Shown: positions 5,282 through 26,276 of the stretch, piece by piece
Layout of the letters: each line of letters begins with the position of its first letter
Numbering within the stretch: position 1 is the first letter of the stretch
Origin: a virus
Length of the DNA: 26,276 nt
Reading direction: 5' to 3' (one strand)
IMG/VR virus record: IMGVR_UViG_3300042541_000066
Coordinates: 1 to 26,276 of that record
Made by a program: the position numbers and the translations under genes
Notes under the pieces: model-generated
Told to the model about the DNA's origin: nothing
The model's input: only the letters and a program-made list of their open reading frames with translations
Databases searched by the model: none

Positions 5282-6022
5282 ATGCCATATACAGTAGCCA
5301 CATCAACATTCAATCCAGCCCTCAATGAGCTTATAGAAGAAGCCTTTGAGAGATGCGGCCTTGAGCTGCGTAGTGGATATGACTTTAGAACAGCTAGGAG
5401 AAGTCTTAACTTCTTGCTAACTGAGTGGGCTAATCGTGGGATAAACCTGTGGACTATAGAGCAGGGAACAATCCCATTGGAGCAGGGCGTATATGTATAT
5501 GACCTCCCAGATAACACTATAGATTTGGTTGAGCATGTAATCAGGACTAATCCTGGAATTATGAACAACCAGACAGATTTGAATATTAATAGGATTAGTG
5601 TATCTACATACGCCACTATTCCTAATAAGCTAACGCAAGGCCGCCCTATCCAGGTGTGGATAAACCGCAGATCTGGGCAGACCACAAATTTGCTTGGAGC
5701 TGAGCAACAGAATCCACAGATCAATATCTGGCCTGCGCCTAGTCAGGGGACCTTAGCAGCTCCTTATTATTACTTTGTTTACTGGCGGCTAGTAAGAATG
5801 CCAGATGCAGGTAATGGTGCTAATGTAGAAGGAATTCCTTTTAGGTTCCAGAACGCCATTGTTTCTGGGCTGGCATACATGTTAGCTATTAAGTTGCCCA
5901 ATGCAATTGACCGTGTGCCAATGCTTAAAGCACAGTATGATGAGGCTTGGCAGTTAGCAGCTGAAGAGGATAGAGAGAAGGCTCCACTGCGGTTTGTACC
6001 GCGCATGATCTCTTACAGGTAG
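5282..6022 (+). CDS. Head-to-tail adaptor-like protein (P22 gp4 / T7 gp11 type)
   Basis: A 246-aa protein. The N-terminal helical region (FNPALNELIEEAFERCGLEL, then the ARRSLNFLLTEWANRG segment) and the following LWTIEQGTIPLEQGVYVYDL are typical of a family of podovirus neck proteins that I believe are related to the P22 gp4 or T7 tail tubular A adaptors. The C-terminal helices (AIVSGLAYMLAIKLP, AQYDEAWQLAAEEDREKAPLR) are also typical. Such proteins form a ring under the portal that joins head to tail. Family assignment is by pattern recognition. The Shine-Dalgarno site is weak, and translation may be coupled to the abutting upstream gene. Confidence 0.75.
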   Translation: MPYTVATSTFNPALNELIEEAFERCGLELRSGYDFRTARRSLNFLLTEWANRGINLWTIEQGTIPLEQGVYVYDLPDNTIDLVEHVIRTNPGIMNNQTDLNINRISVSTYATIPNKLTQGRPIQVWINRRSGQTTNLLGAEQQNPQINIWPAPSQGTLAAPYYYFVYWRLVRMPDAGNGANVEGIPFRFQNAIVSGLAYMLAIKLPNAIDRVPMLKAQYDEAWQLAAEEDREKAPLRFVPRMISYR

Positions 6023-6026
6023 AATC

Positions 6027-6455
6027 ATGGCATCTAAGTATGCATCAGCCAAGAATAGTATTGCTGAGTGTGATAGGTGTGGCTTTAGGTATATGCTTAA
6101 AGAACTAAAGCGCCTAACTATCAAGACAAAGATTACCAATATTAAGGTATGTAAGAACTGCTGGGAACCAGATCAGCCTCAGTTGTCACTAGGTATGTAT
6201 CCTGTAAATGATCCACAGGCAGTAAGAGAGCCAAGGCCAGATGTAAGTTATTACCAGTCAGGCTTTAGTGGGCTGCAGTTGATTCTTAATCCGAATCCAA
6301 CGCCCCAATCAGACGGTACACCAGAGGGTGGCAGTAGAGTATTCCAATGGGGCTGGGGGCCAGTAGGCGGAGCAAGAGATAATGATAATAGGTTAACGCC
6401 AAATTATTTAGTTGCACCTGGAGTTGTCAGCAATGTAACAGTTCAAAATACATAG
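6027..6455 (+). CDS. Zinc-ribbon protein conserved next to the connector genes
   Basis: A 142-aa protein with C15-x2-C18 and C42-x2-C45, a classic four-Cys zinc-ribbon arrangement (ECDRCGFRY, then KVCKNCWEPDQPQLSLGMYP). The second half is Gly/Pro/Asn-rich and probably flexible. I recall the same N-terminus (ASAKNSIAECDRCGFRY) from other phages, always near structural genes. A virion or assembly role is possible, as is DNA binding, and neither is proven. It lies 4 nt downstream of the adaptor-like gene. Confidence 0.75.
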   Translation: MASKYASAKNSIAECDRCGFRYMLKELKRLTIKTKITNIKVCKNCWEPDQPQLSLGMYPVNDPQAVREPRPDVSYYQSGFSGLQLILNPNPTPQSDGTPEGGSRVFQWGWGPVGGARDNDNRLTPNYLVAPGVVSNVTVQNT

Positions 6456-6604: not shown

Positions 6605-6868
6605 ATGGCTAAGGCATGCGGTTGCGCTAAATCCAATGGCCCAGCATCTGAGTATGCAAAGCCACATACAATGTCTGGTGGTCCTTACATCCCTAAGAAG
6701 ATGAGAGATCCTAACCTTCTCAAAGCCACTGAATTGGGTCCACGCGAAGCAGTGCCCCGTGTTAGTATGGGTGATCCTGGCAGGAATGATACAAAGACCA
6801 GTGGAATCAAGATGCGTGGGTATGGTGCCGCCACTAAGGGCATAACTTCCAGAGGTCCAATGGGCTAA
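6605..6868 (+). CDS. 87-aa basic protein with a divergent form of the shared C-terminal tag
   Basis: The N-terminus is Cys-rich (MAKACGCAKSNGPASEY), followed by YIPKKMRDPNLLKATELG. The end is KTSGIKMRGYGAATKGITSRGPMG. This aligns with the tag of the gene at 1738-2286: RG-x-GAA-x-[RK]-G-x-T-x-x-x-x-M. It therefore looks like a distant sixth member of the tagged set, though the KGG patch is absent. Function unknown. It is followed by the longest gene-free gap in this region, containing a palindrome. Confidence 0.75.
   Translation: MAKACGCAKSNGPASEYAKPHTMSGGPYIPKKMRDPNLLKATELGPREAVPRVSMGDPGRNDTKTSGIKMRGYGAATKGITSRGPMG
6794..6865 (+). repeat. Divergent C-terminal tag, copy 6
   Basis: This encodes KTSGIKMRGYGAATKGITSRGPMG. 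The spacing of RG, GAA, [RK]G and T matches copy 2. The link is suggestive rather than certain. Confidence 0.5.
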
Positions 6869-6873
6869 AAGCT

Positions 6874-6893
6874 TCCTTGTCGATCGACAAGGA
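6874..6893. promoter_or_regulatory. Perfect 20-bp palindrome in the gap before the ATT-start gene
   Basis: TCCTTGTCGATCGACAAGGA equals its own reverse complement. As RNA it could form an 8-bp stem with a GATC loop. The right arm includes AAGGA, which with the next G makes an AAGGAG ribosome-binding-like sequence that the stem would hide. There is no T-run after it, so an intrinsic terminator is unlikely. It lies 22 nt before the start at 6916. It could be a translational control element, a processing site or a protein binding site. Confidence 0.7.
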
Positions 6894-6903
6894 GCAATCT
6901 GAC

Positions 6904-6911
6904 AAGGTGAG
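6904..6911 (+). promoter_or_regulatory. Shine-Dalgarno site that supports the ATT start at 6916
   Basis: AAGGTGAG ends 4 nt before the ATT at 6916 (about 5-6 nt from the AGGTGA core). The reading frame has a TAA at 6913, so the frame cannot extend further upstream. The start must lie between 6916 and the first ATG at 6994. Confidence 0.6.
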
Positions 6912-6915
6912 ATAA

Positions 6916-7590
6916 ATTACTTATACAGAGCTAACTGCCGCAATTCAAGCTTACACAGAGAACTATGAGACTGAGTTTGTCTCTTATATTCCTATGTTTG
7001 TTAATCAGACTGAAACGCGGGTATATAACACTGTGCAGATACCTGCGCTGCGTAAGAACCAGACTGGTACTCTTACCACTGATAATAAGTATCTATCATC
7101 GCCAAGTGACTTCCTATCAGTGTATTCGCTGGCAGTAATAGACGCAGATGGCGCATATCAGTACCTATTAGATAAAGATGTGAACTTCATTAGGGCAGCA
7201 TTTCCAGATCCAACGGATACTGGAATCCCCCAATACTATGCAATCTTTGGGTCAACAACTACAAATACTAACCCTCCTGTTATAACCAATGAGTTGAGTT
7301 TTATACTTGGCCCAACACCAGATGCACAGTATGAAGTTGAGATGCACTACTACTATTATCCTGAGTCTATAGTTACAGCAGAGACTACTTGGCTAGGGGA
7401 TAACTTTGATCCTATTCTTCTTTATGGCGCTTTGAGAGAGGCCTATTTGTTTATGAAGGGTGAGCCGGATCTAATTGCAAATGTGGAGGCTAAGTATGGA
7501 GAAGCTATGGGTCAGCTTAAACGTCTGGGTGATGGTCTGGAAAGACAGGATGCTTATAGGTCTGGGCAAGTTAGGGTGTCGGTCACATGA
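6916..7590 (+). CDS. Conserved podovirus virion protein (neck or tail-tube-like), probable ATT start
   Basis: A 224-aa protein if it starts at ATT 6916. The frame upstream of the first ATG (6994) reads TYTELTAAIQAYTENYETEF, then VSYIPMFVNQTETRVYNTVQ. This matches the N-terminus I recall for a conserved phage virion protein family (M-TYTEL...IPALRKN-x-TGTLT). Family members begin M-[TA]-YTEL, and the ATT falls exactly at the M position. The rest (SDFLSVYSLAVIDADG, NELSFILGPTPDAQYEVEMH, LLYGALREAYLFMKGE, AYRSGQVRV) is also characteristic. The family is probably a neck or tail ring, near the T7 gp11-like neighbourhood, but the precise role is inferred. It overlaps the next gene by ATGA. Confidence 0.75.
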   Translation: MTYTELTAAIQAYTENYETEFVSYIPMFVNQTETRVYNTVQIPALRKNQTGTLTTDNKYLSSPSDFLSVYSLAVIDADGAYQYLLDKDVNFIRAAFPDPTDTGIPQYYAIFGSTTTNTNPPVITNELSFILGPTPDAQYEVEMHYYYYPESIVTAETTWLGDNFDPILLYGALREAYLFMKGEPDLIANVEAKYGEAMGQLKRLGDGLERQDAYRSGQVRVSVT

Positions 7591-23523: not shown

Positions 23524-26276
23524 ATGGATGTAAGGATGCCAGATGGGACGGTTGTTACTGGTGTCCCTGAGGATATAACCAAGGCAGAACTTCTTGCTCG
23601 TTATACCAGAAATCAAGTTGCGGCACCTGTTGAGCCACAGCCAGATAGAACAATTGGACAGGCAGCTACAGATATAGGTGCCGGTGTACTTACAGGTCTT
23701 GGCAAGGTTGGGCAGATACCAGGTCAGCTCTATGGGCTGGCTACGGGTGACTTTAAGCCTGGAGTTCTAACTCAGAATGCTAAGGCATTAGAGACAGCTG
23801 GCGCATATCTAGAGTCTCCACAGCTAAAGGCTGCTAGAGCAGACCGCGCTGCAGCTGAGAAAATAGCCTCACAAGAAGGCGTGTGGGAAGAGTTCAAGAC
23901 TACATTCCAGAAGACCATTTCAAATCCAGCTCTGCTAACTAATTTCTTGGCAGAGACTGCACCTCAATTACTCCCCAGCTTTCTTGCTGCTAGAGCGTTT
24001 TCTGCTAGTACTATGGCAGGCAAAGAGCTATTCACAGGCGCAGCTAGGGAAGCAGCGTTGAAGAGTGCTGGAGCTGCTGGAACAAGGGCAGCTATCTACA
24101 CAGGAGCTGTCCAACAGGGTGCTGATATTGGGGCGCAGACATACAAGGATATCAGTGACCACCTAGTAAAAGAGGGGATGAGCCAGCTGGAGGCAGATGG
24201 GGTTGCTCTTGGATACGCTCAAGCCACTGGTGCTACTGCTGCAGTTATCTCAAGAGTTGCTCAAATGCTTCCAGGCGCTAGCAAGATGGAAGAGGCTTTT
24301 GCTGGTATTAAGGGTACTAGCAAAGGCGCTGCTGGAAGGATGTTATCAGCAGCTAAGACTGCTACTGGTGAAATAATTGGTGAAGTCCCAGAAGAAGTTG
24401 GCGGCAAGTTTGCCCAGAATGTAGCTATGCAGCAAGTTAACCCTGAGACTAGCTTGAAAGAGGGCCTAGGAACAGCAGCTGCAATGGCAATGATTGGTGG
24501 TGGTGGTGCTGGTGCAGCTACTGGCGCACTGAGCCCACAAGGTGCAGCGCCTATTCCTGGAGCTGAGCCTGTTATTCCAGAAGCACCCAAAGAAGCTCCT
24601 CCAGAAGTGGCTCCAGTAACTCCTCCAGAAGCGGCTCCAGTGACTACGCCACCAGTTGAGCCAACTCAGGAAGCTAAGGTCCCATCTATCCAACAGATGC
24701 AAGCAATAGCAGCAAAACCTGACTATAACCAAGTCAGTATCTCCAATACATTGGATAGCGGGGCTCCAGTAGTTGTCGCTGATACGCCTATCCCAGAAAA
24801 TAGAATGGGTAAGGTAAGCAATGTATCTGCTGGTGAGGGAAAGGAAATACCAATCCAGTATGCGGTTGTAGAGGCTGCAGATCTAACCCCCTCACATGAT
24901 GCATCAGGTAGCCCTATTGCTAACTTTGCTAATAATGATGTGGAAGGTATACGCCCTGTAGTGGGCAATGGGCGTGTTGCAGGATTACAACAGGCTTACA
25001 TAAATGATACAGCTACAGATTACAAGGCAAAGTTACTCAGAGATGATGATCATGGGATAGATCCTGTTGCTATATACACAATGGATAATCCTATCTTAGT
25101 TAGAGTAATGCCTAAGAATGCTATCACTTCAGATATGGTAGCCACGCCTAAGCAAGAGGCAGCTCCGGCAGAAGAAAAGATAGTGGAGCCTATTAAGCCA
25201 GAGGTAGTAGAGCCACCCAAGCAGGAAGAGCTAGGCACAAGCCGCATTGGAATGGGGCATAAAGAGGCAGCTAAGCGCATTCCAGAGCTAGAGGCTGGCG
25301 CTAAGAAGGTTGCAGCTGGTGAGATGACTAAACCAGAATATGAAGTTTTGGTTAATAAGTACAAGAAAATAGAACCATATGAAGATGTCCCAGTTCCAGC
25401 TACACCTGAAAAGGCAGTTGAGATTCTTAAAGAACCACAAAAGGCAAAGTTTGGAATACCTTCTGCCACCTTAAAAGATGGTGATAGCGTTGGAATTAGA
25501 TTAGATATTCCAGCCTACACAAATCATGGCGTTTGGATATCAACAGTACACAATGAAGGAAAGGGAGTTAAGCCTGGAACAGTAATTGGCTATGAGGGTT
25601 CTACTGCCATTACAAATCCAAAGTTTGTTATGTCTGAGAAGGGCGCACTTTCAATAGCTGAAGGTGGGAATAAGGGTGTACTGGCAACCATAAATGGGTC
25701 ATGGAATCCACTGTCTAAAGAGGAAATAGCGGCTCAAGCTAAGGCTCACTTGAAAGATCCTGAGTGGGCTCAAGTTGGGATGGACCCAGAAAGGCACAGC
25801 TACTACTATGACAAGACTACTCTAGAGCCAATTGTAAGTGGCTCTGAAATGCTGCAAGTTGGGCCACTAATCCTAGTAAAGAATCCTGTATACGCCCCTA
25901 AGGAAAACTTTCTATTTTCTCTAAGCAATATAACAAGAGCTGAGGCTGAATCTTTGGCAGTTAGCCCCATAGTTAAGGTGAACGCACTTTACAAGCTAAA
26001 GAAAGCAAGAAAGCTAAAGGAAGCAAATAAGATTAATGATGCTCAATTTGAGGGTCAGATATCAGATGTTATTAGTCTTCTAGAACAAGCAAAAGAAAGA
26101 GGCAGATACAGAGGTAAGGTGCGTGGTCCAAACTGGATAAGAGCTAAGCTCCGCATAGGTGTGCACAATGGAACCATATCAGATGGAGAGGCTAGATTTG
26201 TAGAGTGGTTATTAGATCAGAATCCTAACTTGGCTCATGATCTAGCTATAAGGATTACAACAAAGGAAGGTAAGGG
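23524..26276 (+). CDS. Large polyvalent-type virion protein with a DdrB-like domain, cut by the window end
   Basis: The frame is open from ATG 23524 to the window end (917 complete codons). AGGAG lies at 23514-23518, 5 nt from the ATG. The N-terminus is MDVRMPDGTVVTGVPEDITK, a start I recall in phage internal proteins. Hydrophobic Gly/Ala stretches sit at about residues 41-70, 140-165 and 315-335. A Pro/Ala linker spans about 340-390. About residues 435-530 (YAVVEAADLTPSHDASGS, then PVVGNGRVAGLQQAY) resemble the DdrB-like domain of polyvalent proteins. About 640-800 (DSVGIRLDIPAYTNHGVWIS, GYEGSTAITNP, SEKGALSIAEGGNKGVLATI and MDPERHSYYYDKTTLEPIVS) resemble a polyvalent-associated domain. Enzymatic domains may lie beyond the window. 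The protein is probably packaged and ejected. Confidence 0.75.
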   Translation, partial: MDVRMPDGTVVTGVPEDITKAELLARYTRNQVAAPVEPQPDRTIGQAATDIGAGVLTGLGKVGQIPGQLYGLATGDFKPGVLTQNAKALETAGAYLESPQLKAARADRAAAEKIASQEGVWEEFKTTFQKTISNPALLTNFLAETAPQLLPSFLAARAFSASTMAGKELFTGAAREAALKSAGAAGTRAAIYTGAVQQGADIGAQTYKDISDHLVKEGMSQLEADGVALGYAQATGATAAVISRVAQMLPGASKMEEAFAGIKGTSKGAAGRMLSAAKTATGEIIGEVPEEVGGKFAQNVAMQQVNPETSLKEGLGTAAAMAMIGGGGAGAATGALSPQGAAPIPGAEPVIPEAPKEAPPEVAPVTPPEAAPVTTPPVEPTQEAKVPSIQQMQAIAAKPDYNQVSISNTLDSGAPVVVADTPIPENRMGKVSNVSAGEGKEIPIQYAVVEAADLTPSHDASGSPIANFANNDVEGIRPVVGNGRVAGLQQAYINDTATDYKAKLLRDDDHGIDPVAIYTMDNPILVRVMPKNAITSDMVATPKQEAAPAEEKIVEPIKPEVVEPPKQEELGTSRIGMGHKEAAKRIPELEAGAKKVAAGEMTKPEYEVLVNKYKKIEPYEDVPVPATPEKAVEILKEPQKAKFGIPSATLKDGDSVGIRLDIPAYTNHGVWISTVHNEGKGVKPGTVIGYEGSTAITNPKFVMSEKGALSIAEGGNKGVLATINGSWNPLSKEEIAAQAKAHLKDPEWAQVGMDPERHSYYYDKTTLEPIVSGSEMLQVGPLILVKNPVYAPKENFLFSLSNITRAEAESLAVSPIVKVNALYKLKKARKLKEANKINDAQFEGQISDVISLLEQAKERGRYRGKVRGPNWIRAKLRIGVHNGTISDGEARFVEWLLDQNPNLAHDLAIRITTKEGK

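Follow-up and report, generated by a model that had tools for sequence, protein, structure and literature searches.

The adaptor gene and its start codon

The window, that is, the whole stretch of DNA that was analysed, is a virus record of 26,276 bases. At positions 6916-7590 it carries an SU10-type head-to-tail adaptor gene of 224 amino acids, which begins with an ATT codon (6916-6918; all window features given here lie on the + strand). A small conserved gene of 87 amino acids is found upstream (6605-6868). In most relatives the stop of this gene either overlaps the adaptor start or lies shortly before it (GGC-ATG-A), and the 47-nt leader that separates this stop from the ATT in the window (6869-6915) is absent from most of them. 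The last 12 nt of the leader, AAGGTGAGATAA (6904-6915), combine a Shine-Dalgarno sequence (AGGTGA) with an in-frame TAA (6913-6915) immediately 5' of the ATT. The first in-frame ATG (6994-6996) is codon 27, where a standard ORF call begins; because gene callers restricted to ATG, GTG and TTG would trim 26 conserved residues in this way, the phenomenon is easily overlooked. A sequence-only reading of this DNA had reported the TAA, the ATT and the ATG at these positions and AAGGTGAG at 6904-6911, and all of them proved to be correctly placed. Its statement that the TAA bars any longer frame also holds, the codon being in frame, abutting the ATT and followed by no in-frame ATG, GTG or TTG before 6994.

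The adaptor product belongs to the Pfam family SU10_adaptor (PF24175), which it matches with 81.2 bits against a cut-off of 27 (E 1.8e-22). It also matches phrog_2941 and, from the first query residue, the SU10 adaptor gp11 (PDB 7z47; E 1e-5, ~180 residues). The conserved virion protein for which a rare ATT start had been proposed has thereby been assigned to a family; it resembles gp11 in sequence over about 180 residues, and the window gene is unusual only in its start codon and leader. The SU10 adaptor is a dodecamer placed between the portal and the nozzle (PMC9509320), and by analogy with SU10 about 12 copies per virion would be needed. Elsewhere in the window, a weak match to SU10_adaptor (PF24175, E 1.6e-7; phrog_12985) is given by the protein encoded at 5282-6022, and a second adaptor-related gene may thus be present. 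A very large ORF (23524-26274), which runs off the window, partially matches families of virion RNA polymerase and of DarB-like phage proteins.

It was found that all of the 80 closest IMG/VR relatives align from adaptor residue 1, and the codon in their start column is ATG in 66, GTG in 6, TTG in 4, ATT in 3 and ATC in 1. The ATT thus occupies the family's start position, as had been claimed, and the ATG, GTG or TTG of most relatives lies in this same column rather than elsewhere. Codons 2-26 are under purifying selection, with a dN/dS of about 0.06 against the 91%-identical relatives and with pN of 0.11-0.21 and pS of 0.73-0.95 against a sister clade (clade B). The region 5' of ATG 6994 is therefore translated, and it was rightly taken for the conserved N-terminus. 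Between 6916 and 6994 there is no in-frame ATG, GTG, TTG, CTG or ATA, and the sole in-frame near-cognate codons are the ATTs at 6916, 6943 and 6988. Because the TAA blocks any extension and translation begins 5' of ATG 6994, ATT 6916 is the only sensible start. With no usable canonical in-frame start and with conserved coding 5' of the first ATG, the gene has a genuine ATH start (ATC, ATT or ATA), and its translation from ATT 6916 is confirmed at the level of comparative sequence analysis. A start at ATG 6994, with the preceding 78 nt untranslated or vestigial, is what a standard start-codon ORF scan returns; it is very improbable given the strong constraint on codons 2-26, which relatives translate from a start in the same column, and given that the SU10 adaptor structure aligns from query residue 1.

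A sequencing or assembly error for a true ATG would take only one base, and the window is a single assembled virus record. However, TAA-ATT is identical in two independent contigs (L175 and L191; 91% nucleotide identity to the window over ~4 kb), and the same ATT is carried by L160, which has 1 mismatch in 4 kb to the window. ATT is likewise present in every member seen of clade B, although synonymous sites are saturated between this clade and clade A, to which the window belongs. Because L175, L191 and the diverged clade B all read ATT, a base error, which the sequence-only reading had named as its own possible undoing, is excluded in practice. Clades A and B are joined in the DNA tree with a support of 97/97; the protein tree does not support them as one clade (p-AU 0.08).

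Homing endonucleases at the adaptor start of relatives

IMG/VR was scanned for ATH at the start column within the N-terminal motif of the family, with a complete listing. The scan yielded clade A, clade B, a set with an ATG two codons upstream (L163, L166, L179, L181, L183 and L194), which was set aside as canonical, and a scattered set with an upstream frame ending in TAA before ATC or ATT. In the scattered set this frame represents either a GIY-YIG endonuclease gene or what is left of one. A first search with a single endonuclease gave 26 loci, 25 of them with TAA-ATH. In a search with an endonuclease alignment, which was blind to the start codon, a free-standing GIY-YIG homing endonuclease gene was found directly upstream of the adaptor at all of the distinct junctions (45/45). 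The GIY-YIG domain (PF01541) was detected in three members with an E of about 1e-7.

At these 45 junctions the adaptor starts with ATH in 33, TTG in 10, GTG in 1 and ATG in 1, four ATH junctions and one TTG junction having been missed by the script motif, read from the script output and included. Of the ATH junctions, 27 were scored as abutting by script and 4 more were read from the output; in the other 2 (L497 and L498) the genes overlap by 11 nt, the adaptor ATC lying inside the endonuclease 3' end and not after its stop. ATG is the start at 182 of the 223 distinct loci that are endonuclease-free (95 of 117, about 80%, in the start-blind sample), as against 1 of 45 at the endonuclease junctions (Fisher p about 1e-25, with related loci taken as independent). 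On the tree, the start class changes 23 times. In a 183-row tree all independent pairs agree (15/15), with the scar label partly defined by ATH and the sample partly chosen by ATH or NTG; in a smaller start-blind tree 3 of 6 independent pairs are informative, and all 3 are in the expected direction. The main weight is placed on the start-blind junction counts and on the paired junctions described below.

In the usual junction, the endonuclease stop abuts the adaptor start (GGTGGCT-TAA-ATC). The endonuclease 3' end (for instance GGTGGCTTAAATC) usually contains a Shine-Dalgarno-like GGTG, giving the form GGTG-N3-TAA-ATH with ATH as adaptor codon 1. In a second form the adaptor TTG overlaps the endonuclease TGA; because this kind of endonuclease is also found at some TTG junctions, non-ATG, rather than ATH alone, is the rule.

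The endonuclease reads from the former start place of the adaptor, often from the very ATG or GTG. Occupied junctions could be paired with empty ones (L318 with L213; L164 with L225 and L233, which read GGC-ATG-AA). In L193 the endonuclease sits on the GTG that starts the adaptor in L312, and in L351, compared with L300, the endonuclease N-terminus is now encoded by what were the first four adaptor codons. Occupied and empty alleles of one site and the lack of an intron by Rfam, in the window and in five endonuclease loci, mark the endonuclease as free-standing. A self-splicing intron, or a frameshift, that would bring back an AUG or join the adaptor to coding sequence upstream is most unlikely. 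An ATG does often stand just before the inserted gene in endonuclease-bearing relatives, and excision would restore it, but besides the Rfam result the endonuclease ORF fills the insertion and so leaves no room for a ribozyme, and the window has no insert to excise. Frameshifting or read-through from the upstream gene is ruled out in the window by the TAA at 6913.

The endonucleases fall into subgroups that differ in their N-terminal nuclease halves and have a common C-terminal part (YCxEL..SF..KxAAEYL..KGKV..YTLxxVA). For example, L357, L371 and L410 differ from L167 and L164 in the GIY-YIG N-terminal half and have the same C-terminal part and TAA-ATH junction. This suggests that domains have been swapped and that the target goes with the C-terminus.

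When the scan was reversed to look for this junction with an ATG in place, no endonuclease of the adaptor-junction type emerged; the ATG cases had either a different GIY-YIG-like gene (L426, L427, L431) or an ordinary upstream gene (L428, L430). In the former three, the other gene is inserted after adaptor codon 6 (MNYTEL), and the adaptor start is duplicated with ATG kept; this insert is a second, apparently independent invader of the same hot spot. No close relative of the endonuclease was found among INPHARED isolates, and the genome contigs scanned gave chance matches only, without an adaptor, which serve as background. Short 'partial endonuclease' matches before ATG in L295, L262, L267 and L288 were discounted, as they stop 3 nt into the adaptor start; most likely they arose where endonuclease query frames extend backwards into the gene upstream.

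Endonuclease-free alleles and the leader of the window

The same adaptor was found with the endonuclease (L370, L400) and without it (L350, L391, L368). The endonuclease-free allele retains only the last 12 nt of the endonuclease and the ATT: L350, L391 and L368 keep GATGGCATAA-CCAATCC-AAGGTGGCG-TAA-ATT (or ACG before the TAA), and AAGGTGACGTAA is present both in L327, where the endonuclease is there, and in L368, where it has been lost. Further reduced forms were observed (L408, L347/L397, L165/L184/L188, L342, L343, L398/L401). Near-complete deletion of the endonuclease has occurred in several lineages and has left GGTG-N3-TAA-ATH and the odd start behind as a scar.

The layout of the window, AAGGTGAGA-TAA-ATT, is the same, with GGTG-N3-TAA directly before the ATH. 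Because AAGGTGAGATAA-ATT has the form of the endonuclease-free alleles, it is read as the likely scar of a lost endonuclease; the 12 nt would be the last of its gene (K V R stop), and the 47-nt leader is proposed to be what remains of it. On a matrix of endonuclease 3' ends the last 12 nt of the window leader score 6.5 bits, which only 1 of 188 NTG leaders attains (mean -19); shuffled leaders reach this score with a p of 0.0003, or of 0.01 when the stop codon is left out. Only about 12 nt of the leader resemble the endonuclease end, and the scar-like form can arise otherwise, because the ordinary upstream genes of the ATG relatives L428 and L430 also end in AAGGTGCGC-TAA. Among the IMG/VR loci retrieved, none was a close relative of the window's clade with the endonuclease still in place; such an occupied relative exists for another scar (L370 for L350).

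The alternative is a point mutation from ATG to ATT, without any link to an endonuclease, which was kept as a translational damper giving a low, IF3-sensitive adaptor dose; TAA and GGTG would then be a coincidence plus ordinary Shine-Dalgarno selection. Clade B is in its favour, as it keeps ATT without a recognisable endonuclease end (no GGTG-N3-TAA), and so is the ATT itself, which is unchanged between clades A and B despite saturated synonymous sites. Yield-lowering non-canonical starts are also documented for pcnB, infC and S. aureus cvfC1 (PMC13009471) and for sigR (PMC5472188). However, nearly all other lineages with an ATH start have the endonuclease or its 3' end, and the window shares their GGTG-N3-TAA-ATT layout and has a leader of 47 nt that resembles an insertion. 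The point mutation is hence regarded as rather unlikely, and the loss of an endonuclease is preferred.

The leader contains a hairpin (6871-6895; -14.5 kcal/mol, z -5) built on the palindrome CCTTGTCGATCGACAAGG at 6875-6892. In L175 (about 6063-6087) the stem reads CCTTGAAGATCTTCAAGG, the pairing being kept via several paired changes between genomes that are 91% identical, which suggests selection on pairing or a template-switch event. A second hairpin was predicted at 6898-6929, with UCUG/CAGA enclosing AGGUGA/UUACUU, in a stretch that is identical in L175; as predicted, it would mask the Shine-Dalgarno and cover part of the AUU start. The Shine-Dalgarno is slightly stronger in ATH than in ATG leaders as a group (p 0.0005), and that of the window is not stronger.

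Proposed mechanism and relation to known systems

Taken as a whole, the explanation that the ATT start traces to the insertion and loss of a homing endonuclease at the adaptor start appears probable from these sequence comparisons. A GIY-YIG gene would insert at the adaptor start codon and leave the adaptor with ATC, ATT, ATA or TTG; the endonuclease would later be lost and the odd start would stay. While the endonuclease is present, ribosomes ending at its UAA may re-initiate on the adjacent AUH, aided by the Shine-Dalgarno. Termination-reinitiation coupling is local (PMC10666635), and re-initiation is helped by a Shine-Dalgarno and lowered by excess IF3 (PMC2268962). Once the endonuclease is gone, the same Shine-Dalgarno could support weak de novo initiation, sufficing for the about 12 copies per virion. 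For the window, de novo initiation on AGGTGA is likelier because 47 nt separate the ATT from the end of the nearest long gene upstream. The activity of ATT was about 0.3% of that of ATG in an E. coli reporter (Hecht 2017, as cited in PMC10666635), so the adaptor yield may be low.

ATG may be avoided since it is part of the DNA target of the endonuclease, since a weaker start suits the new arrangement, or for both reasons; target-site immunity and dose tuning both fit the near-absence of ATG beside the endonuclease. It is tentatively suggested, at rather less than even odds, that the target includes the adaptor ATG, that non-ATG marks the occupied allele as self and that the scar stays immune to re-invasion.

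E. coli infC resembles the window in having an AUU start near a UAA stop and a Shine-Dalgarno (GGAGGAATAAGGT-ATT), and the ATT start that the sequence-only reading had ascribed to it is correct. The parallel that was drawn with IF3-dependent autoregulation is not supported, because infC is regulated by its own product, IF3, whereas the adaptor is a virion protein without a feedback link to IF3, and no feedback logic is visible. An internal AUU start occurs in T4 gene 26. Yield-limiting non-canonical starts similar to that of the window are those of pcnB, Streptomyces sigR (GTC), S. aureus cvfC1 (AUU) and ccpN (AUA) (PMC13009471, PMC5472188); these are cellular genes in which the start limits dose, whereas here the odd start tracks a mobile element.

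The T4 seg genes are likewise intron-less GIY-YIG nuclease genes between conserved phage genes, and several of them overlap their upstream neighbour, translation by coupling being assumed for these (PMC2988022). In contrast to them, the family described here is found at one site, the adaptor start codon, and often takes that codon over; the adaptor is left with AUC, AUU, AUA or UUG, whereas PMC2988022 describes no rewriting of the start codons of neighbours. Endonucleases near essential phage genes are already known (PMC10448857), and free-standing GIY-YIG endonucleases (PMC2988022) and non-canonical starts (PMC13009471, PMC5472188) are each known singly. A search of largely open-access literature gave no account of a homing endonuclease altering the start codon of its neighbour.

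Non-AUG starts in bacteria and phages are usually taken to be devices of regulation or mistakes of annotation. In this case, it appears to be a mobile element that gives rise to them, repeatedly and at a single structural gene, and the natural series of empty site, occupied site and scar makes start-codon choice, termination-reinitiation and homing immunity directly testable. If the target of the endonuclease does include the ATG, a selfish element would be forcing a structural gene of the virion off AUG initiation.
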